Position numbers and translations under genes: made by a program. This document shows, piece by piece, positions 18,554 to 33,566 of a stretch of DNA of 33,721 nt. The notes under the pieces were generated by a model that was not told the origin of the DNA, made no database searches, and saw nothing but the letters and a program-made list of their open reading frames with translations. This DNA is from an uncultured Granulosicoccaceae bacterium (GTDB lineage: Bacteria; Pseudomonadota; Gammaproteobacteria; Granulosicoccales; Granulosicoccaceae). The stretch is taken from contig CALKXD010000213.1 in NCBI GenBank assembly GCA_938003855.1, forward strand, positions 1 through 33,721, written 5' to 3'. Positions within the stretch are counted from its first letter, which is position 1. Each line of letters opens with the position of its first letter.

Positions 18554-19522
18554 TTACGGTACCAGCGACAATCCGATCCGGTCCCATCGAATGCCGTCCT
18601 CTCCCTTCGAAAACCACACCTGCCTGGCACGTCCCACCACATCACTCAGCGGCACCTGACCAAACTTGCGGGAGTCGCTGCTGTGGTCACGGTTATCTCC
18701 CATCACAAACACATGCCCGGGCTTGACTATCACTGTGCGGCTGCCGTCAGCAACCGTGCCTGCAATGGCGCGCCAACTGACACCGTTAATCGATTCTTCT
18801 ATCACCTCTCCCGCTTCAGGAGCCTCACCGGGTGCTGACAGCGCGACACCATTAACCGACAGGCCATTGGCCGCGAATTCAACTTCGTCTCCGGGCAGAG
18901 CTATAATGCGCTTAATGTAGTACAAATTGCGATTGTTCGGATACACAAACACTGCAGCGTCGCCACGTTGAACATTTTTTCGGCAGTAAGGGCAGTTGTA
19001 GTTTTTATTGGCAAACAAAAAGTCTCCCGCGAGTATCGTTGGCTGCATACTACCGCTGGGGATCCGAAACGCCTGCACCTGTCGCGATTGCACCCAGTTA
19101 ACCAGCAGCGGCAGGATAATCAAACTGCAAACCACAAAAACCGCCGCATACAGCCCACCGGTCTGCCACGCCGGACGCCGGTAGCGCTTGCTCAGGCTGG
19201 CCTGACGCCAGGCAGCAACAATCGCATACAACCAAAGCCCCAGAGTAAGCACCAGACTCAGCACCAACACCGGTAAAGTCAGCGCCACCGGAAGGTATAA
19301 CGCGACTATCGCCATCAGCGGAATAGTCAGCAGGCAAAAGCACAGAAATATCCAGATCGCACTATTTACCCGGCCGTTATAGAGTTGACCGAATCCGGGC
19401 AATACTGCAGACATAAGCGCGGCGATCAGCGGGTTGCGTGGACACCCGGCCGGAGTATCTGTCAGCGGCTTGTAGCCGGTGGATTGCGGCGCGGGTGCGT
19501 AGAGGTCATTGCGTGTGTTCAT
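18554..19522 (-). CDS. lepB: Signal peptidase I with N-terminal membrane extension
   Basis: 322 residues. The C-terminal half is a family S26 leader peptidase: PSGSMQPT gives the catalytic Ser158, YYIKRIIALPGDEVEF gives the general-base Lys204, and GHVFVMGDNRDHSSDSRKFG is the conserved box. The N-terminal ~140 residues hold several hydrophobic helices, more than the two of E. coli LepB. They begin with NPLIAALMSAVLPGFGQLYNGR, a TM2-domain-like motif. Between Ser158 and Lys204 is a CPYC motif (177-180) that is unusual for this loop. The ATG has AGGAG five to six bases upstream. The gene lies 41 bases after the small TM-protein gene and is probably co-transcribed with the ECF sigma factor, which suggests a stress-controlled or specialised signal peptidase rather than the housekeeping one. 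Confidence 0.93.
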   Translation of the reverse strand: MNTRNDLYAPAPQSTGYKPLTDTPAGCPRNPLIAALMSAVLPGFGQLYNGRVNSAIWIFLCFCLLTIPLMAIVALYLPVALTLPVLVLSLVLTLGLWLYAIVAAWRQASLSKRYRRPAWQTGGLYAAVFVVCSLIILPLLVNWVQSRQVQAFRIPSGSMQPTILAGDFLFANKNYNCPYCRKNVQRGDAAVFVYPNNRNLYYIKRIIALPGDEVEFAANGLSVNGVALSAPGEAPEAGEVIEESINGVSWRAIAGTVADGSRTVIVKPGHVFVMGDNRDHSSDSRKFGQVPLSDVVGRARQVWFSKGEDGIRWDRIGLSLVP

Positions 19523-19563
19523 TTATCTCTCCTGATTGAGTTTCCGGCACGTCCGATCGGGGG

Positions 19564-19869
19564 TTAACCCGCTGCCGTGGTTACCCAGGCACCAAAAATA
19601 AACGCGGTTAACTGCCCCGCCCCGACCACGGCGCTGGCCAGCAAAGCCAACCACTGCCACCAGGACGGATGCGTGGTGCTTGTGTCAGTTGCGCCCAGCG
19701 AGCTCTCAGTCGCCAATGTCGGGGTATCCGCAGCAAGCGTTTTTTCGTAAGTTACCTGCGCCAGCACCGACCGGGTAAAGTCCGCCGGTGGAATCACCAT
19801 TGGACGGGCCAGCAAGTGCTCATGCTCCTCGCTGAGCATTGATTTGTCGGGCTCTGTGTCATACGTCAT
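19564..19869 (-). CDS. Small single-pass membrane protein, candidate anti-sigma factor
   Basis: 101 residues from the ATG at 19867-19869, which overlaps the sigma-factor stop in ATGA and is preceded by a strong GGAGGAG. The N-terminal ~65 residues are polar; the segment VIPPADFTRSVLAQV resembles the start of many membrane anti-sigma-like proteins. A Ser/Thr-rich linker follows. One transmembrane helix (WWQWLALLASAVVGAGQLTAFIFGAWV) sits near the C terminus, leaving almost no periplasmic domain. There is no zinc-binding HxxxCxxC motif, so it is not a classical ZAS anti-sigma factor. Tight coupling to the sigma gene makes an anti-sigma or accessory role the leading guess. An in-frame upstream start inside the sigma gene (19947) is not needed. 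Confidence 0.75.
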   Translation of the reverse strand: MTYDTEPDKSMLSEEHEHLLARPMVIPPADFTRSVLAQVTYEKTLAADTPTLATESSLGATDTSTTHPSWWQWLALLASAVVGAGQLTAFIFGAWVTTAAG

Positions 19870-20447
19870 GCGTTTGTCTCCTCCAGTCGGGTGGCGAGTC
19901 GCGCCCGGGCGCGGGATAAGCGGGTACGGAAAGTACCGGGGGTACATCCGGCAAGCTGCGACGCCTCCGCGGTACTCAGTTCCTGCACGTAAACCAATGC
20001 GAGCAAATCTCTGTCTTCTGCCGACAAGCTTCGCAGCGCCGACTGGATCAATTGGATTTTCTGGTTTGAATCGACAATCACCGACGGCTCTGACAGCGGA
20101 TGCCGGTCAACCAGATTATCAATCGCACTTTCGCCTTCATCAGTGAACTGCTCTTGCGAACGCCGTTTGAGCCGGTGAAATTCGGTTCTGGCCACATTAA
20201 CGGCAATGCTGAACAGCCAGGTGGACACTCTGCCGCGGGAAATATCAAAGCTCTCGCGGCCTCGCCAGACACGTAAAAAGGTCTCCTGCGCCAGATCTTC
20301 TGATTGCTGCTGAGAAAAACCCATTCGACCCAGGTATCCAAAAACGGACGCCTGATAGGTTTCTACCAGCCGGGTAAATACCGATAAATCTCCGCTGGTC
20401 AGATCAACGAAATTTTCGTTGTCGGGTTTGTCAATTTCAGTTGGCAT
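19866..20447 (-). CDS. RNA polymerase ECF (sigma-70 family) sigma factor
   Basis: 193 residues with the two ECF domains. Region 2 (about 22-92) includes EDLAQETFLRVWRG and VSTWLFSIAVNVARTEFHRLKRR. Region 4 (about 130-186) includes LRSLSAEDRDLLALVYVQELSTAEASQLAGCTPGTFRTRLSRARARL. ECF factors direct RNA polymerase to extracytoplasmic stress or nutrient promoters. The ATG at 20445-20447 has no ribosome-binding site, and a promoter-like pair of boxes ends only five bases upstream, so the mRNA may be leaderless. The gene overlaps the next by four bases (ATGA), and lepB follows. Auto-regulation is likely but unproven; the set of target genes is unknown. Confidence 0.92.
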   Translation of the reverse strand: MPTEIDKPDNENFVDLTSGDLSVFTRLVETYQASVFGYLGRMGFSQQQSEDLAQETFLRVWRGRESFDISRGRVSTWLFSIAVNVARTEFHRLKRRSQEQFTDEGESAIDNLVDRHPLSEPSVIVDSNQKIQLIQSALRSLSAEDRDLLALVYVQELSTAEASQLAGCTPGTFRTRLSRARARLATRLEETNA

Positions 20448-20452
20448 ATAAC

Positions 20453-20482
20453 GTTATACCAGCGCTATCGCGAATCGTTACA
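20453..20482 (-). promoter_or_regulatory. Candidate promoter of the ECF sigma operon (possibly leaderless)
   Basis: On the minus strand, TGTAAC (plus positions 20482-20477) and TATAAC (20458-20453) are separated by 18 bases. TATAAC fits a sigma-70 -10 box. TGTAAC is a poor sigma-70 -35 but resembles -35 elements used by several ECF factors. Transcription starting about seven bases after the -10 would begin at or next to the A of the sigma-factor ATG (20447). Confidence 0.4.
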
Positions 20483-25490: not shown

Positions 25491-26069
25491 TCAGGAGATC
25501 TCGGTACTCGCCGTAATCACTTTGCTGACGATTCCATAGTCGATGGCTTCACCGGTATCCATCCACTTATCTCTTTCGATGTCGAGCCGCACCCGTTCGA
25601 TATCTGTACCGGTCCGATTTGAGATCACCTGCGCGAGTCGTTCACGCATCTTGATAATCTGCTGTGCCTGAATGGCGATATCAGACGCGCTGCCACCCGC
25701 ACCACCTGACGGCTGGTGAATCAGAAAACGGGTGTTCGGCAGACAGAATCGATCTTCCTTCTCCGCCGCCAGAAAAATGTGCGTGCCGGCACTGGCGACA
25801 TAGCCGGTTCCGATCACCTGCACCTTTGGTGAGATGAAACCGATCATGTCGTGGATGCTGTCACCTGCTTCCACATGACCGCCCTGACTGTTTACGAACA
25901 GGTGTATCGGGTCTGCAGATTCTTCCGCAAGCGCCAGTAGCTGGGCCATAACACGCTTGGCCATCGTCTGGTTTATTTCCTCACAGATGATAATTTTGCG
26001 TGCCCCGAACAATTTTTCAGCGATCGAAGATTCGCCTGGCTCACTCTTGTCCGTTTTTTTATCTGTCAT
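25491..26069 (-). CDS. ClpP-type serine protease subunit (paralog)
   Basis: 192 residues with the ClpP fold. Catalytic residues by alignment in memory are Ser93 (GYVASAGTHIF), His118 (FLIHQPSGG) and Asp167 (ERDKWM). The oligomer-forming segment IQAQQIIKMRERLAQVISNRTG and the ending EAIDYGIVSKVI are family-typical. The N-terminal ~24 residues are polar and differ from housekeeping ClpP, with no visible propeptide of the usual type. The ATG at 26067-26069 follows GGAGA seven bases upstream; an in-frame ATG at 26171 would add 34 residues. No clpX, clpA or tig lies nearby, unlike the standard tig-clpP-clpX order, so I read it as an accessory paralog. It is convergent with the two-component pair, 84 bases away. 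Confidence 0.88.
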   Translation of the reverse strand: MTDKKTDKSEPGESSIAEKLFGARKIIICEEINQTMAKRVMAQLLALAEESADPIHLFVNSQGGHVEAGDSIHDMIGFISPKVQVIGTGYVASAGTHIFLAAEKEDRFCLPNTRFLIHQPSGGAGGSASDIAIQAQQIIKMRERLAQVISNRTGTDIERVRLDIERDKWMDTGEAIDYGIVSKVITASTEIS

Positions 26070-26601
26070 GCTGTTGTCTCCGATGGGATCTGTTGAATTC
26101 TGAAAGTGCGTCACTGCATAGCGCGTGCGCGAACGGTGCATGGAAGGTGCCGAATACGGCCAATCGGTCAACTATTCAACCGGATCACTGATCGTAATCG
26201 CTCACTCGACCCGGCAGACATCTGTGCGCGCCGCTCGCAGGCAAGCAACCGGCCACTGTCAGAGGTTGCGCCGACAGCACTTTTAACTGCCCCTATTGTA
26301 CTGGCTTAGCGGACCGGTAACGGCAATTGTTAGTTGATGCTCACAATTACAGGTCGTCATTTTGATGACGCCTGAGCATAGCCGCCCATGCTGATTCTGA
26401 CACTACATCACTACCCGGTTAGCGGGCTTTAGACACCACGGGTGCGCTCACGTGCCGTGCAAACCTGCCTGCCGGGGCTACATCCTGATACATCTTGGCG
26501 CCGCCCGAAAACCATAATTAGCCGCACGACTGGCAAAGCATCAACGCTCTGCCACTCGTCACTGACACACTCTATGGGAACGGTAACGTGAGGTTGACAA
26601 C
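26070..26601. other. Divergent non-coding region between clpP paralog and peptidase gene
   Basis: About 530 bases with no supported gene; short frames here have no family resemblance. A hairpin lies at 26351-26373 (cgtcat tttg atgacg, extended by agg/cct around one bulged T). Both flanking genes are transcribed away from this region, so it must hold two promoters, but I cannot assign their boxes with confidence. Confidence 0.5.
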
Positions 26602-28035
26602 ATGATGGAATCATCCACAAAAACAGGATTCGCCGCTCTGGCACTACTGCTCATCAGTGGCTGCGACAGCGATAATAAAGTAACTACCGCCGCACCACTT
26701 GACTGGCAAATCTGCGAGGCAACAGAGGCACTGCAATGCAGCACACTGGAGGTGCCAATGATTCACGGCGACGCCGGTGGTGAAAAAATCACTCTGGCCC
26801 TGAACCGGTTGCCGGCAACCGGAACGACACCGCTCGGCAGCCTTGTGTTCAACCCGGGTGGACCCGGCGGCTCCGGTTTGCAACTGATCGAAGCCCTGCA
26901 GCAGGACAACATCGTTCCCGATGCCATCCGCGCCGCCTATCATCTGGTCAGTTTTGATCCGCGTGGTGTCGGCCAGAGCACACCCATCGACTGCGAAGAA
27001 GATGGCGTTGACAATCTAGACGACTACCCGGTAACACTGGCCGAGCTGCAAGCGATTGAACGCGGTATCACCGCTTATGCGACCACTTGCTTTGAAAAGA
27101 TCGGAGACTACCTGCTGCACGTCGGGTCACGCGCTGTGGTTCGCGATATGGAACTGATCCGCCAATCGCTGAGTGAACCCACACTTAATTTTCTAGGCTA
27201 TTCCTACGGTACCAGGCTGGCAGCATTATATGCACAGGACTATCCTGCGAAAGTCGGCCGTTTTATTCTCGACGGAAGTTTGCCCCCAACGCACGATACC
27301 GCCACTTTGTTTGGTGCATCACTGCCGGCGATGGAAGCCAACCTGCTGACCCTGGCTGACAGCTGCTCACAATTCAGCAGCTGTGATCCGGCCACTTATA
27401 AGCAGGCACTGGAATCACGTGTACAGACCCTGATCGACAATGGCGGTGAGCTGGAGCTGCAGATACTTAGCAGGCTGGTTATCGGCGCCGTGCAGTCACC
27501 GGAGATGATTCCCGCGGTTGCGCAGGCACTCTACGACTATTCACTGGCATGGAATGCAGGCAGTCTGCTGCAAATAGCTGACGATCTGGACCTTGGCGGC
27601 AACGGCGACGACGATGGCGATTCGATCACTATGGAATTTGCCGTTCTCTGTGCCGATGATGCCAGCAGACCTACTGCCACGGATGCCGAGGCACTTCGGG
27701 ATGACTTCAACCAGCGCAGCGATATATTTGCCGAACTACAACTGGCGTCGGCGCTGACCTGTGCCGGTTGGCCGGGTGCGGTTGATCCGTTGCCGGAGAT
27801 CAGCACCAGCCAGGCGCCACCGACACTGGTGATAGGCGGACCCACCGATACACAAACCATACTGCCGTGGAGCGAGCAAATGGCCACTGCCATCGGTGGT
27901 CACTTCCTGCGGTCCGAGCACCTTGGCCACACGACCGTGTTCAGCCGGCAGAATCAGTGTACGGACGCCGCCGCTATAGATTTTCTGCTCAATGGCACGC
28001 TGCCGGATAAAACCGTCTGTGCCGCTGATCTATAA
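26602..28035 (+). CDS. Secreted lipoprotein alpha/beta hydrolase, tripeptidyl aminopeptidase (S33/TAP) type
   Basis: 477 residues with a lipoprotein signal peptide (ALALLLISGC; lipid-modified Cys21). The catalytic fold shows FNPGGPGGSG (oxyanion region, 83-92), SFDPRGVGQST, and the nucleophile elbow FLGYSYGTR with Ser201. An Asp in the GGPTDTQT region and His443 in EHLGHTTV complete the likely triad. Cysteines at 38, 46, 131, 163 and later fit an exported, disulfide-bonded enzyme. The C-terminal TAP-like domain ends the protein. The family removes N-terminal tri- or dipeptides or hydrolyses small esters outside the cytoplasm. The ATG at 26602 follows GAGGT; a second ATG one codon later is possible. 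It appears monocistronic. Confidence 0.9.
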   Translation: MMESSTKTGFAALALLLISGCDSDNKVTTAAPLDWQICEATEALQCSTLEVPMIHGDAGGEKITLALNRLPATGTTPLGSLVFNPGGPGGSGLQLIEALQQDNIVPDAIRAAYHLVSFDPRGVGQSTPIDCEEDGVDNLDDYPVTLAELQAIERGITAYATTCFEKIGDYLLHVGSRAVVRDMELIRQSLSEPTLNFLGYSYGTRLAALYAQDYPAKVGRFILDGSLPPTHDTATLFGASLPAMEANLLTLADSCSQFSSCDPATYKQALESRVQTLIDNGGELELQILSRLVIGAVQSPEMIPAVAQALYDYSLAWNAGSLLQIADDLDLGGNGDDDGDSITMEFAVLCADDASRPTATDAEALRDDFNQRSDIFAELQLASALTCAGWPGAVDPLPEISTSQAPPTLVIGGPTDTQTILPWSEQMATAIGGHFLRSEHLGHTTVFSRQNQCTDAAAIDFLLNGTLPDKTVCAADL

Positions 28036-28053
28036 CGCATTTAATACGATGCC

Positions 28054-28082
28054 CCGGCAGAGGCTGCTAATACCTCTGCCGG
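28054..28082 (+). terminator. Hairpin after the peptidase gene
   Basis: ccggcagagg (28054-28063) pairs perfectly with cctctgccgg (28073-28082) around a 9-base loop, 18 bases after the stop codon. The following bases are caaaaatc, so there is no T tail for plus-strand transcription. It may be a factor-dependent terminator or an mRNA 3' end stabiliser. Confidence 0.5.
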
Positions 28083-28263
28083 CAAAAATCAAACACTGAC
28101 AAAAACCTGCTGCACCTCAGTCGCCTCCGGACGCCGTTTGATTTCCGTTGAAACGTACCAGAGTTATCCCGCGTTCCCCTACAGCACCAATGCAAATCTA
28201 TTCCATCGCTGGCAGCCCCCATGGAACAGGCAAGTCTGGCGCTGGTAGTAGAGTGAGGAATCA

Positions 28264-28295
28264 CTGCTTGAAATCGGCGCTTCTATTTCAAGCAG
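28264..28295. terminator. Perfect 11-bp hairpin downstream of the minus-strand gene at 28321
   Basis: ctgcttgaaat (28264-28274) and atttcaagcag (28285-28295) are exact reverse complements with a 10-base loop. It sits 26 bases past the stop of the minus-strand gene and about 230 bases past the plus-strand peptidase gene, in a convergent gap. No T run follows on either strand, so its role as terminator is tentative. Confidence 0.45.
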
Positions 28296-28320
28296 CGCTG
28301 CTCAGTGGATCTGCCCCCCA

Positions 28321-29028
28321 TCAGGTGGGTTCGGCAATACGCAGCCGCAGATAGTCGACTTCAATATCGACCGTCACAGCGATCATGAACTCAAACACTT
28401 CAACCGCGCGCGCAGGTTCGAGATCATAGTGCTCTGCCAGATTCGCCGCGAGCTGAAGTACTTTTTCCTCCCGATCCTTGCGTACTATAAACTCGAGCAT
28501 TTGATCGCGATCACCGCCGGTCTCGCGAAATGCGTCGGGCATTTCAAGAAACTTGGATTCCGCCACCAGCTTGCCTAAATTGACGCGCTCCATCATCGCC
28601 AGCAAGGCGGCGACATCCGCTGTGACGGTTTCACCGTAGGTATTTCTGTTGTCACCAACGGGACAGGCACGCACCACCCACTGGCGGTAAAATTCAATAA
28701 TGCGAGCACCAACGCCGCTGGGCATTGACCGCACCGGGCTTGCCGGGGCTTCCCGTGCAATCACGCGCTGAACATCAGACACGTCGCTGTAGGCGTCCTG
28801 CGCGGCAAAGGAATAACGCCCTAACTCTGCATGGCAGCGTTCAATTTGCGCCAACTCATAGTGCAACAGAGACTGCCCGGGTCGGGCCGTCACCAGGCCC
28901 GGCTCATACACCGCTGCATTGCTGGAGAAGCGGGTGCGTTTTTTCAGTGCAATAATTATCTCGTTAGCAAGAATATCGAGGCCGGGCCGGATGGTGGCTT
29001 GCAGGTCGAGGTCTGGATGAATAGCCAT
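28321..29028 (-). CDS. Helical protein with chorismate-mutase-like features, function unknown
   Basis: 235 residues from the ATG at 29026-29028; the frame is open 27 codons further to an ATG at 29107, and neither start has a clear ribosome-binding site. It seems all-helical. The N-terminal segment (LDILANEIIIALKKRTRFSSNAAVYEPG) and the C-terminal segment (AANLAEHYDLEPARAVEVFEFMIAVTVDIEVDYL) resemble helices 1 and 3 of AroQ-type chorismate mutases. The protein is over twice the length of a minimal mutase, and I cannot place all active-site Arg/Lys residues. The assignment is therefore weak. It is divergent from the sugar-acid operon with a 147-base gap, so the two could share control. No signal peptide is seen. 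Confidence 0.6.
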   Translation of the reverse strand: MAIHPDLDLQATIRPGLDILANEIIIALKKRTRFSSNAAVYEPGLVTARPGQSLLHYELAQIERCHAELGRYSFAAQDAYSDVSDVQRVIAREAPASPVRSMPSGVGARIIEFYRQWVVRACPVGDNRNTYGETVTADVAALLAMMERVNLGKLVAESKFLEMPDAFRETGGDRDQMLEFIVRKDREEKVLQLAANLAEHYDLEPARAVEVFEFMIAVTVDIEVDYLRLRIAEPT

Positions 29029-29175
29029 AGGTTTTTCGTCGTCTGGAAGACAAGAGCATCCACCACAGCTCAGCATGCCGTCAAGTCTGATCGACGCCCG
29101 ACCGTACATCCCCTGTTGTCGGAAACCCTGCCGCGCTGTTACTCTGCGTAGTCAGATTTGGCCATTGGAGGAACC

Positions 29176-30954
29176 GTGAGCGAGCCTAAAAATTTCAAGC
29201 GACGCAGCCAGGCATGGTTTGACAACCCTGCCAACCCGTCGATGACCGCACTCTATGTTGAACGCTACCTCAACTACGGACTGACTCGCGAGGAACTGCA
29301 GTCCGGCAAACCGGTAATCGGCATCGCCCAGACCGGCAGCGATCTGTCGCCGTGCAACCGCGCTCACATCGAAAACGCCAAGCGGGTGCGCGAAGGCATT
29401 CGCGAAGCCGGAGGTATCGCCATTGAGTTTCCGGTCCACCCGATTCAGGAAACCTCACGCCGCCCGACCGCTGCGATTGACCGGAATCTGGCCTACATCG
29501 GACTGGTTGAAATTCTGCATGGTTATCCGCTCGACGGTGTGGTGCTGACCACTGGCTGCGATAAAACCACCCCCGCCTGCCTGATGGCGGCGGCCACCGC
29601 AAACCTGCCGGCCATCGTGCTGTCGGGCGGGCCGATGCTCGATGGCTGGCACGACGGCAAACTGGCCGGGTCCGGCACCATTGTCTGGGCATCCAGATTG
29701 AAGCTCGCTGCCGGTGAAATCGACTACGACGAATTCATGGATATCACGGCATCCGCGGCGCCGTCACCGGGACACTGCAATACCATGGGTACGGCATCCA
29801 CCATGAATGCGCTGGCCGAGGGCCTGGGTATGTCATTACCCGGCTGCGCGGCAATTCCGGCGCCCTACCGCGAACGACTGCAAATAGCCTATGAAACCGG
29901 CAAGCGCATCGTCGAGATGGTCGACGAAAACCTCACACCGTCAAAGATCATGACACGCGCAGCCTTTGAAAATACCATTGCGCTGAATTCGGCTATCGGT
30001 GGCTCTACCAATGCCCCGATCCATGTGAACGCCATTGCTAAATGCATGGGCGTGCCGCTGTCAATTGAAGACTGGGAAACGCATGGCTACAAGGTGCCGC
30101 TGCTGGTCAATATGCAACCGGCCGGCGAATACCTCGGTGAGATGTTTCACCGCTCCGGCGGCGTGCCTGCGGTGATGGGTGAACTGCAGCGGGCCGGTCA
30201 GCTTAACGATGATGCACTGACCGTCAACGGCCGCTCAATGGCTGAAAACACCAGCGACAGTCACACCGCTGATGATCGCGTGATCAAGCGCTACGCAACC
30301 CCAATGCGCGACAACGCGGGCTTTCTGGTGATGTCCGGTAACCTGTTTGATTCAGCCGTGCTGAAGTCCAGCGTGATCAGCGAGGATTTTGCCGACCGAT
30401 TTCTGCGCAAGCCCGGCAGCGAAGGTGTGTTCGAAGGCCGCGCTATCGTCTTTGAAGGCTCGGAAGACTATCACGATCGACTCAATGATCCCGCACTGAA
30501 CATCGACGCCGATTGCATTCTGGTGATGCGCGGTTCCGGACCAATCGGCTGGCCGGGGTCGGCAGAAGTGGTCAACATGCAGCCACCGGATGCATTAATC
30601 AAAGCTGGAATATCAGAGCTACCCTGCATTGGCGATGGCCGTCAGTCAGGCACCTCTGCGAGTCCGTCAATACTGAACGCCTCTCCTGAGTCCGCAGTCG
30701 GTGGCGGGCTCTCACTGCTTGAGACAAATGACATTATTCGCATCGATATGAACCAGCGACGGGTCGATATGCTGGTGGATGAAACCGAACTGGAAGCGCG
30801 GCGCGCGCAACTGACGATCAGCTATCCACCAGACCAAACGCCCTGGCAGAATATCTATCGCAGCCATGTCGGGCAACTGGCGCACGGCGCCTGCGTTGAA
30901 CTCGCCGAGGCTTACCACAACGTTTGTGAAGACTTGCCACGGCACAACCACTAG
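29176..30954 (+). CDS. xylD: IlvD/Edd-family sugar-acid dehydratase, D-xylonate dehydratase-like
   Basis: 592 residues. Members of this branch remove water from aldonic acids such as D-xylonate or L-arabinonate to give 2-keto-3-deoxy acids, using an iron-sulfur cluster and Mg. Cluster ligands Cys60 (DLSPCNR), Cys128 (TTGCDKTTPA) and Cys201 (GHCNTMGTAS) fall at the numbers I recall for Caulobacter xylonate dehydratase. IGWPGSAEVVNMQPP, GDGRQSGTSASPSILNASPESAVGGGL and the ending LPRHNH also match that enzyme closely. Lys130 is the expected active-site lysine. The start is GTG 29176, placed by GGAGG four bases upstream; a TTG at 29158 would add six residues and include that site. It leads an operon with denD-like and uxaA-like genes, so the true substrate may differ from xylonate. 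Confidence 0.88.
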   Translation: MSEPKNFKRRSQAWFDNPANPSMTALYVERYLNYGLTREELQSGKPVIGIAQTGSDLSPCNRAHIENAKRVREGIREAGGIAIEFPVHPIQETSRRPTAAIDRNLAYIGLVEILHGYPLDGVVLTTGCDKTTPACLMAAATANLPAIVLSGGPMLDGWHDGKLAGSGTIVWASRLKLAAGEIDYDEFMDITASAAPSPGHCNTMGTASTMNALAEGLGMSLPGCAAIPAPYRERLQIAYETGKRIVEMVDENLTPSKIMTRAAFENTIALNSAIGGSTNAPIHVNAIAKCMGVPLSIEDWETHGYKVPLLVNMQPAGEYLGEMFHRSGGVPAVMGELQRAGQLNDDALTVNGRSMAENTSDSHTADDRVIKRYATPMRDNAGFLVMSGNLFDSAVLKSSVISEDFADRFLRKPGSEGVFEGRAIVFEGSEDYHDRLNDPALNIDADCILVMRGSGPIGWPGSAEVVNMQPPDALIKAGISELPCIGDGRQSGTSASPSILNASPESAVGGGLSLLETNDIIRIDMNQRRVDMLVDETELEARRAQLTISYPPDQTPWQNIYRSHVGQLAHGACVELAEAYHNVCEDLPRHNH

Positions 30955-31008
30955 CCGTCATCAGCAATTGGCTATCACAATCAAGCAACACGCAGTCTAG
31001 AGAAACAA

Positions 31009-32010
31009 ATGAACATACTAATTACCGGCGGTGCCGGTTTCGTCGGACAACGCCTTGCAATGGAATGCCTGCAGCGCGGAAACCTGCAACTCGACGGCAA
31101 GCCGTCCCCGCCGATCACAAAAATTTTACTGGCCGACAACGCCGAACCACCCTTCTGGCACGACGGCTTGCGCGAGCACCCGCTGGTCACCTCAAGTTTT
31201 GGCGATATCAGCGACGAGGCTTACGTCAAGTCGCTGTTCGCCGAAGAAATTCACGCGGTATTTCACCTTGCCTCTATTGTCAGTGGACACGGTGAAACCG
31301 ACTTCGATCTAGCCATGCGCGTCAACCTGGACGGTACCCGCTATTTGTTTGAAGCAACCCGGGCGCAGCAAAACAACGCACGGGTGGTGTTCACCAGTTC
31401 GGTGGCTGCTTTCGGGGGCGACGCCATGCCGGACACGGTCAGCGACTACTCCAAGCAAACGCCAATGACCACCTACGGTATGACAAAAGTCATTGGTGAG
31501 CTATTAGTCAATGACTACAGTCGCAAGGGTTTTTTCGACGGCCGCAGCGCACGCCTGCCAACGGTTATTGTACGACCCGGAAAACCGAATCTGGCCGCCT
31601 CCAGCTTTGTCAGTGGTTTGTTTCGCGAACCACTCAACGGCGAGCCCTGTGTGATTCCGGTTGACCCGTCGCAACTGATGCCGGTACTTGGCTATCGCAG
31701 TATCATCAACGGGATTATCAAGCTGGCCGAATTACCTGCCGCCGATCTCGGCACAGACCGCGGCGTCGGCCTGCCAGCTTTCAATGCCACGGTCCAGGAA
31801 CTCATGGACGCTTTGAAAAATGTCGCCGGCAACCGCCACCTGGGCGAGCACATTTTGAAAAAAGATGACACCATCGCAAAAATCTGCGCCGGCTGGCCGC
31901 AGCAGGCCGATACCGCTCGCGGTATTGAACTCGGGCTGCCGATAGAAGATTCTATAGAAGACATCGTCGCCAACTATATTGAAGACTATCTGGAAGGTGC
32001 GAGCACATGA
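31009..32010 (+). CDS. denD: NAD-dependent epimerase/dehydratase family, D-erythronate dehydrogenase (DenD)-like
   Basis: 333 residues of extended-SDR type. NAD motif TGGAGFVG (6-13), acidic Asp43 after the second strand, HLASIVSG, Ser130/Ser131 (FTSSVAAFG), and catalytic Tyr156/Lys160 (YGMTK). The segment ARLPTVIVRPGKPNLAASSFVSGLFREPLNGE is characteristic of the DenD group, which oxidises C2 of D-erythronate to the 2-keto acid. Relatives act on other sugar acids. It starts 54 bases after the dehydratase and overlaps the next gene in ATGA. Co-occurrence with two dehydratases suggests a combined oxidation and dehydration pathway for an aldonic or aldaric acid. The symbol reflects family, not proven substrate. 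Confidence 0.8.
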   Translation: MNILITGGAGFVGQRLAMECLQRGNLQLDGKPSPPITKILLADNAEPPFWHDGLREHPLVTSSFGDISDEAYVKSLFAEEIHAVFHLASIVSGHGETDFDLAMRVNLDGTRYLFEATRAQQNNARVVFTSSVAAFGGDAMPDTVSDYSKQTPMTTYGMTKVIGELLVNDYSRKGFFDGRSARLPTVIVRPGKPNLAASSFVSGLFREPLNGEPCVIPVDPSQLMPVLGYRSIINGIIKLAELPAADLGTDRGVGLPAFNATVQELMDALKNVAGNRHLGEHILKKDDTIAKICAGWPQQADTARGIELGLPIEDSIEDIVANYIEDYLEGAST

Positions 32011-33566
32011 CTGATGACATAATCAATATTAACTGGCACAAAAAACCCGACCAAAGCGTCGGTTTTATCAAGCTTACCGAAAAAGACAATGTTGCCGTTG
32101 CATTGCGCACCATCAATGCCGAAGAAACCATAAACGATATCACTACCCGCCAGGAGATCCCCAGTGGCCACAAGCTCGCCTTGCAGGATATTGCGACTGG
32201 TGAGCAGGTAATTAAATACTCACAGGTGATCGGCTATGCCAGCACAGATATTAAAACCGGCGATCACATCCACACCCAAAATATTGAGTTTCGTTTAACA
32301 GACCACAACTACGAGTATTGCGTCGACAACGAAGCACCGGAGGTCTTGCCACTGGAGTCCAGAGCGCAATTTATGGGCTTTCAGCGCGCTGACGGTCAGG
32401 TCGGTACGCGCAACTTCATTGCCATCCTCGCAAGCGTTAACTGCTCCGCAACAGCGGTACAACATATCGCCAACGCTTTTACCCCTGAACTACTCGCCGA
32501 TTACCCCAACATTGATGGCGTGGTTGGCTTTTCCCACAGCACCGGTTGCGGGCTCGCAGATTCCGGGGACGGCTTCGACAACCTGCAGCGGGTGCTGTGG
32601 GGCTATGCACAGCATCCGAATGTCGCCGGTGTGCTGTTGGTCGGACTGGGCTGTGAGGTCAATCAGATCAGCTCACTGGTTGAGCAATATCATATGCAGC
32701 GTGGCCCGCTGCTACGCACCATGAATATCCAGTCGGTTGGTGGCCACACCAAAACGGTTGCGGCCGGTGTCGCTCGCATAAAAGAGATGCTGCCGGAAGC
32801 CAATAACTGCCAGCGCAGTTCCTGCCCGGCCTCTTCTCTGACTCTGGCACTGCAATGCGGGGGCTCCGATGCATGGTCGGGCATTACGGCAAACCCGGCG
32901 CTCGGCTATGCCGCTGATTTACTGGTTAAACACGGTGGCACCGCCGTGCTGGCCGAAACTCCTGAAGTCTATGGCGCCGAACATCTGTTAACACGCCGCG
33001 CGAGCGATGAGCCAACCGCAAAGAAACTGGTCGAACGCATCCTCTGGTGGGAAGACTATGTAGCCCGCAACGGCGGCTCAATGGACAACAATCCATCACC
33101 GGGTAATAAGCTCGGCGGGCTTACCACCATACTGGAGAAATCACTCGGTGCGGTCGCCAAAGGCGGTACCACTCGTCTTAACGGTGTCTATCGCTACGCT
33201 GAGAAAATTGACCGCAACGGCTTTGTTTTCATGGACAGCCCGGGCTACGACCCTGCATCAATCACCGGTGAAGTGGCGGGTGGTTGCAACCTGGTTGCTT
33301 TCACCACTGGTCGCGGCTCAACCTACGGATGTAAGCCGGCCCCAAGCATTAAAATTGCGACCAACACAGAGATGTATAATCGCATGACCGAAGACATGGA
33401 CATCAACGCCGGTCGCATCGTCACCGAAGGCGCGAGCATTACTGATGTCGGGGAAGAAATATTTGCAACGCTGTTATCCGTGGCCTCCGGAGCCCCTTCA
33501 CTGAGCGAGCAGCTCGGGCTCGGCGATCACGAATTCGTGCCCTGGCAGGTAGGCGCTACCATGTGA
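32007..33566 (+). CDS. uxaA: UxaA-family altronate/galactarate-type dehydratase (SAF plus UxaA domains)
   Basis: 519 residues. The N-terminal ~95 residues form the SAF domain (IPSGHKLALQDIATGEQV, GYASTDIKTGDHIHTQNIEF). The rest is the catalytic UxaA/GarD domain: GFQRADGQVGTRNF, SVNCSATAV, HSTGCGLADSGDG, LLVGLGCEVNQ, LQCGGSDAWSGITANPALG, ETPEVYGAEHLL and TTGRGSTYGCKPAPSIKIATN. Characterised members dehydrate D-altronate or D-galactarate using iron or another metal. The ATG overlaps the denD stop (ATGA), with GGAAGG upstream. The last bases GTGA overlap the next gene. Length is normal for the fused form. Which sugar acid is used is unknown. Confidence 0.88.
   Translation: MTDDIININWHKKPDQSVGFIKLTEKDNVAVALRTINAEETINDITTRQEIPSGHKLALQDIATGEQVIKYSQVIGYASTDIKTGDHIHTQNIEFRLTDHNYEYCVDNEAPEVLPLESRAQFMGFQRADGQVGTRNFIAILASVNCSATAVQHIANAFTPELLADYPNIDGVVGFSHSTGCGLADSGDGFDNLQRVLWGYAQHPNVAGVLLVGLGCEVNQISSLVEQYHMQRGPLLRTMNIQSVGGHTKTVAAGVARIKEMLPEANNCQRSSCPASSLTLALQCGGSDAWSGITANPALGYAADLLVKHGGTAVLAETPEVYGAEHLLTRRASDEPTAKKLVERILWWEDYVARNGGSMDNNPSPGNKLGGLTTILEKSLGAVAKGGTTRLNGVYRYAEKIDRNGFVFMDSPGYDPASITGEVAGGCNLVAFTTGRGSTYGCKPAPSIKIATNTEMYNRMTEDMDINAGRIVTEGASITDVGEEIFATLLSVASGAPSLSEQLGLGDHEFVPWQVGATM

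Follow-up and report, generated by a model that had tools for sequence, protein, structure and literature searches.

An ECF sigma factor, a putative reduced anti-sigma factor and a second signal peptidase I in a conserved operon of Granulosicoccaceae

Gene content and layout of the operon

On the minus strand of the window, by which we mean the whole stretch of 33,721 nucleotides analysed here (contig CALKXD010000213.1 of an uncultured Granulosicoccaceae bacterium, GCA_938003855.1), positions 18554-20482 hold an ECF sigma factor gene, a gene for a one-helix membrane protein and lepB2, which together form one operon. Its features, in the direction of transcription, are the following:

20454-20482, minus strand: ECF-like promoter TGTAAC-N17-GTATAA directly 5' of the sigma gene; position kept in relatives, and no other site in its own genome fits the 12-base pattern exactly
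19866-20447, minus strand: sigma gene; Sigma70_r2 (2.4e-18) and Sigma70_r4_2 (7e-13) in Pfam, orthologs in triads
19564-19869, minus strand: gene for a putative reduced membrane-bound anti-sigma factor of 101 aa; alignments A1 and A5, NCBIfam NF052375 (10/25), zinc-motif homolog L071, AF2 model
18554-19522, minus strand: lepB2, second signal peptidase I of 322 aa; PF10502 (4.9e-40), TIGR02227 (6e-37), AF2 pLDDT 88.9, alignment A6
18911-19051, minus strand: predicted catalytic core of LepB2, with Ser158 (19051-19049), CPYC (18994-18983) and Lys204 (18913-18911); A6 columns 158, 177, 180 and 204

Position 20482 is where the promoter motif begins on its upstream side, and the sigma gene itself starts at 20447. 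As a first, sequence-only reading of this DNA had described, the sigma gene and the membrane-protein gene overlap in an ATGA, with GGAGGAG just 5' of the membrane-protein ATG, and lepB2 follows after a gap of exactly 41 bases. The gene 5' of the operon, which is dimethylglycine-dehydrogenase-like, is divergent, and the FAD monooxygenase gene on the 3' side is separate, so the operon comprises three genes only. Further along the window (25491-33566) lie ClpP-like, dehydratase and epimerase genes, which are separated from the triad by two sensor/regulator genes and a dimethylglycine-dehydrogenase-like gene, and whose homologs directly adjoin the triad in three genomes (G004, G009 and G010). At the other end, an open frame with Thr/Asp/Asn- and Pro/Ile/Thr-repeats (217-522) stands just before an FG-GAP repeat protein (531-1916).

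The sigma factor has 193 aa, with Sigma70_r2 at residues 27-95 and Sigma70_r4_2 at 132-184, and scored above the cut-off of TIGR02937 in the profile search. LepB2 is a type I signal peptidase of family S26, with PF10502 and TIGR02227 above their cut-offs and a Ser/Lys dyad whose Ser158 and Lys204 are each found in 35/36 aligned sequences. The enlarged N terminus that had been pointed out contains a PGFGQLYNG stretch related to DUF5683 (E 2e-5, slightly short of the cut-off), and the confident AF2 model places an N-terminal membrane domain before a normal catalytic domain. The CPYC that had likewise been seen occupies residues 177-180, between Ser158 and Lys204. Most LepB2 proteins of triads have a CxxC following the catalytic Ser, a family trait which the housekeeping LepB lacks; its reading as a defining redox switch was rejected, because at least one intact triad (L164) has YNR... 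instead and the motif is hence not essential.

A second S26 gene, with the higher family score and with lepA-, rnc- and era-like genes on its flanks, lies on contig C256 (G000:C256) of the window's genome, an assembly of 6.8 Mb that is 98% complete. On sequence grounds, this gene is the housekeeping LepB, for which a search had been proposed, and the window gene is a paralog, LepB2, which lies outside a lepA-lepB-rnc-era neighbourhood and is not the only copy. A Pro seven residues before the catalytic Ser confers arylomycin resistance. The idea that LepB2 is an inhibitor-resistant replacement was rejected for lack of support at this position, where the housekeeping LepB has Pro, LepB2 has Ala, and relatives show a mixture of P, S and A.

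Conservation of the triad and its promoter

The three-gene order is conserved in relatives and was found in about 38 genomes, belonging to Granulosicoccaceae, Thiothrix/Leucothrix, Methylococcales, Burkholderiales, Rhodocyclaceae and Rhodoferax. Intact triads are present in the same genus (G000, G001, G004, G005, G006, G009, G010, G011 and G013), elsewhere in the same family (G017, G026, G027 and G032) and in another family (G036). With a second lepB in the genome and the order shared by relatives, the situation that had been named as speaking against a dedicated system, a single lepB in an order of its own, is not what is seen. Among the 32 closest LepB2 loci of the genome collection, 26 have a sigma gene and a small gene upstream, 5 of these 26 being contigs already counted among the triads. 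The other six are without a sigma gene; a description of these Thiothrix/Thiolinea loci as LepB2 without sigma was rejected, because three of the six genomes (Thiothrix caldifontis, T. lacustris and Thiolinea disciformis) carry an intact triad with its own lepB2 elsewhere and the loci are further paralogs. In these Thiothrix and Thiolinea genomes (L166, L176, L181 versus L247, L248, L249), the extra LepB2-like paralog outside the triad has neither a sigma gene nor a clear promoter.

The flanking genes of the triad vary between groups, so that the three genes stay together for function and not by general synteny, and no other gene accompanies the triad throughout. Across the class the triad is rare, the strict promoter form having been found at one triad only in a sample of 369 genomes, and a search of plasmids gave no match. 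In two genomes (G008 and G003) the sigma or lepB part lies at contig ends. In G012 (L073:7122-7580), an internal deletion, either genuine decay or an artefact of assembly, joins the promoter and the start of the sigma gene to the C-terminal end of lepB2, and no triad was detected in G002 and G007; with one triad decayed and none detected in two further genomes, the circuit would be dispensable. A longer arrangement occurs in Burkholderiales bacterium LacPavin (L177:3478-4152), where a compact S26 signal peptidase of 206 aa heads the operon behind the same sigma promoter and is followed by sigma, anti-sigma and LepB2, giving four genes with two signal peptidases.

The promoter motif TGTAAC-N17-GTATAA, which can also be written TGTAACC-N16-GTATAA, is kept 5' of the sigma gene across triad relatives, and distant triads have the extended form TGTAACCTTT-N12-GGTATAA. 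At the sequence level this is the arrangement expected of ECF autoregulation, a promoter with an AAC-containing -35 element before the sigma factor's own gene. The sigma ATG lies about 6 nt past the -10 element in the window, and usually about 5-8 bases past it across the genus; given this short distance, the sigma transcript may be leaderless. The -35 element resembles the GTAAC(C) of ECF16 promoters (EcfF), whereas the -10 element is CGAA-like there and GTATAA here (PMC3420878). Most triads match the 12 fixed promoter bases with 0-1 mismatches, where about 0.0008 matches with at most one mismatch would be expected by chance in the stretch scanned at each locus. The 13-base form gave 11 matches among 16 triad genomes, one per genome and all at the triad operon, and its reversed-pattern control gave zero matches in the same 16 genomes.

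A second copy of the promoter stands immediately 5' of lepB2 in Thiothrix STA_22, T. caldifontis, T. lacustris, Thiolinea and HyVt-519, and lepB2 is therefore a direct predicted target of the sigma factor. In HyVt-519 both copies have the same altered -35 element, GGGAACC, which suggests that the promoter pair has changed in step with its sigma factor. No further consensus targets were found in the 16 other genomes scanned, and at one mismatch the 12-base pattern showed no enrichment over the reversed control in any genome, that of the window included; therefore, no wider regulon is claimed from this pattern. Promoter matches upstream of yidC in G005 and G006 (L123, L124) were rejected as evidence for a regulon link to membrane insertion, the motif appearing within a yidD-like coding sequence. 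At the level of consensus promoters, the signal peptidase would thus be the main output of the circuit. That a sigma factor governs export processing through a self-contained circuit, as had been proposed, has good in silico support from the conserved order, the changing flanks, the shared promoter and the lepB2 promoters of five genomes.

The membrane protein as a putative anti-sigma factor

The membrane protein has been described as lacking the zinc anti-sigma motif and having almost no periplasmic part, and both points hold. The H-x3-C-x2-C motif is not present in the window protein, and the AF2 model (mean pLDDT 79, low pTM) has helices at residues 10-21 and 31-47 and a TM helix of 31 residues (70-100), so that the single TM helix runs to residue 100 of 101 and no periplasmic domain remains. 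The window protein has no profile match above a curated cut-off. A consensus of 25 members reads DxLDxLLxxxLLxPPxDFxxRVMxxI, followed by a variable linker and a TM segment ending FxFGxWxxxAx, and many members are only 71-85 aa in full length. The NCBIfam anti-sigma model NF052375 matches 10 of these 25, with a best E of 3e-5 that is far below the curated cut-off; the PxxFxxxVMxxI motif is conserved, and the alignment to RsiW is weak (E 1.2).

A link to class I anti-sigma factors is provided by the triad of G036, whose middle protein (L071) has a full H-x3-C-x2-C, then PxxFxxxVM and a similar TM helix, and whose sigma promoter has the same motif with one mismatch. In class I proteins, helix 1 binds sigma-4 and helix 4 binds sigma-2, and the two-helix CnrY uses both sites (PMC7406223). 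In its AF2 model the window protein shows two cytosolic helices only, and not the four-helix cytosolic domain (ASDI) of class I. We read it as a class I anti-sigma factor probably cut down to helix-1-like and helix-4-like parts, with PxxFxxxVM as the predicted sigma-2-binding motif, because the G036 homolog combines the zinc motif, PxxFxxxVM and a similar TM helix behind a promoter of the same motif. Homology thus speaks for the anti-sigma role implied from the start, and of the readings considered a reduced anti-sigma factor fits the membrane protein best.

The predicted two helices and single TM helix would also fit the architecture of class II, CnrY-like proteins. The CnrY-CnrH and AabA-SigAb systems likewise have a very short anti-sigma factor with two cytosolic helices and one TM helix, translationally linked to the sigma factor (PMC4598750, PMC7406223, PMC12153292). 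However, CnrY has no detectable sequence similarity to the window protein, a PDB search having given no CnrY match, and the third gene in those systems encodes a sensor (CnrX, AabB), as opposed to a signal peptidase here. Given the class I zinc anti-sigma factor of a related triad, the short protein here resembles a class I protein that has been cut down.

The C-terminus of the window protein reads W-V-T-T-A-A-G, and among 33 sequences 30 have Trp at precisely the seventh position counted from the end and 27 have Ala as the penultimate residue. Because the N-terminus would be in the cytosol, the C-terminus is predicted to lie at the periplasmic face of the membrane, where LepB acts. For a cut before the last residue, the -3/-1 rule of signal peptidases is satisfied in 26/33 sequences. 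The AxA-X end resembles a signal-peptide cleavage region, a likeness that is only suggestive, since the rule is satisfied nearly as often at offsets 2 and 3.

Proposed circuit, alternatives and related systems

We favour, as rather probable, an autoregulated circuit of an ECF sigma factor and a minimal anti-sigma factor that is dedicated to a second signal peptidase I and includes feedback from signal peptidase. The sigma factor would read TGTAACC-N16-GTATAA before its own gene, and in some species also before lepB2, leading to expression of sigma, anti-sigma and LepB2, while the two cytosolic helices of the membrane protein would hold the sigma factor. Because the anti-sigma factor has no periplasmic sensor domain, we infer that the signal is most likely read within the membrane, at the conserved TM helix and the AxA-like C-terminus, which would be located where the active site of signal peptidase would be. 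Free signal peptidase, either LepB2 or the housekeeping LepB or both, would most likely engage this tail and hold the anti-sigma factor in position, whereas saturation or shortage of signal peptidase would cause the anti-sigma factor to fail and LepB2 to be induced.

This feedback step, in which free enzyme on the tail keeps the system off and shortage induces it, is tentative and in our estimate falls somewhat short of an even chance; it is favoured because the tail is conserved, of fixed length, AxA-like and at the membrane face where LepB acts. In its most specific form, the circuit would work as a thermostat in which a C-terminal mimic of the cleavage region is occupied by free signal peptidase, and loss of enzyme through saturation or inhibition frees an ECF sigma factor for the gene of a second signal peptidase, a form that we regard as possible but doubtful. 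Against the feedback step stands that it rests on one motif, and that small residues at the end of a TM helix can also serve helix packing.

The alternative that survives best, although it too is on the unlikely side, is that LepB2 is merely an output, the anti-sigma factor being governed otherwise, by an unlinked periplasmic or membrane partner, by redox or by general proteolysis, and making no contact with LepB2. ECF regulons often include their own operon, the promoter evidence as a whole needs no feedback, and for CnrY-type anti-sigma factors control lies with a distinct partner, CnrX (PMC4598750). However, no further gene accompanies the triad throughout, and the membrane C-terminus is the most conserved part of the anti-sigma factor and has a fixed length to its end.

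It is improbable that LepB2 instead acts, along the lines of the second idea of the sequence-only reading, as a site-1 protease, making a signal-triggered cut at the anti-sigma C-terminus that frees the sigma factor in positive feedback, as SipP does with RsiP. SipP cuts RsiP and signal peptidases cut RsiV (PMC8844934), and the AxA-X end here would be on the correct side of the membrane; but RsiP and RsiV lose extracytoplasmic parts, whereas a cut at the AxA would remove a single residue, and positive feedback of a protease on its activation would call for an additional brake. The SigP-RsiP-SipP system of Bacillus thuringiensis, like SigV-RsiV, does share with the favoured circuit an ECF sigma factor, a membrane anti-sigma factor and a non-housekeeping signal peptidase in one circuit (PMC8844934). 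It differs in that the extracytoplasmic part of RsiP is cut by SipP, whereas the TM helix of the anti-sigma factor here reaches the C-terminus, with no extracytoplasmic part, and in that it needs a PBP sensor and RasP and targets beta-lactamases and PBPs, as opposed to a signal peptidase as main predicted target.

Less probable still is that LepB2 serves a special cargo under the same sigma factor, that is, particular exported proteins and not general export capacity. A DUF4185 lipoprotein gene lies directly behind a sigma-type promoter in G013 (L088:1501-2700) and in G008 (L152), where the promoter is a one-mismatch form whose motif is retained although the surrounding upstream DNA differs. 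In G001 (L087:1501, G001:C204), an exact promoter match stands 27 bases before the GTG start of a beta-propeller lipoprotein, which is perhaps an additional sigma target. With these lipoprotein targets in G008, G013 and perhaps G001, the regulon would not be strictly LepB2 everywhere. However, lipoproteins are normally processed by signal peptidase II, the DUF4185 lipoprotein is absent from the genome of the window, and the 16 other genomes have no second consensus target. Finally, that the membrane protein is an accessory subunit of LepB2 which shares an operon with sigma by chance and is not an anti-sigma factor would fit its highly conserved membrane C-terminus, but is very improbable in view of the translational coupling to sigma, the PxxFxxxVM helix motif, the NCBIfam anti-sigma similarity and the zinc-type homolog.

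In the literature searched, which did not include the main ECF classification paper, no described system was found that shares the set of genes, the arrangement of promoters or the use of a signal peptidase as main sigma target, in agreement with the sequence-only reading. How bacteria monitor whether their signal peptidase is sufficient is largely unknown, ayrRABC of Staphylococcus aureus being the one worked-out case, and its authors state that almost nothing is known of responses to insufficient signal peptidase (PMC5727409). That system shares with the favoured circuit a dedicated response that offers a substitute once signal peptidase runs short, but it is Gram-positive and uses a repressor and an ABC-transporter bypass, with neither a sigma factor nor a peptidase (PMC5727409). 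A compact Gram-negative circuit that has a signal peptidase gene as main predicted sigma target, a promoter of defined sequence and an anti-sigma factor of very small size would make signal-peptidase sensing testable in a heterologous reporter strain, and would bear on the response of Gram-negative bacteria to inhibitors of signal peptidase. The recurrence of this three-gene switch and its control site in distant relatives suggests a means by which cells could tune how much export processing they can carry out.
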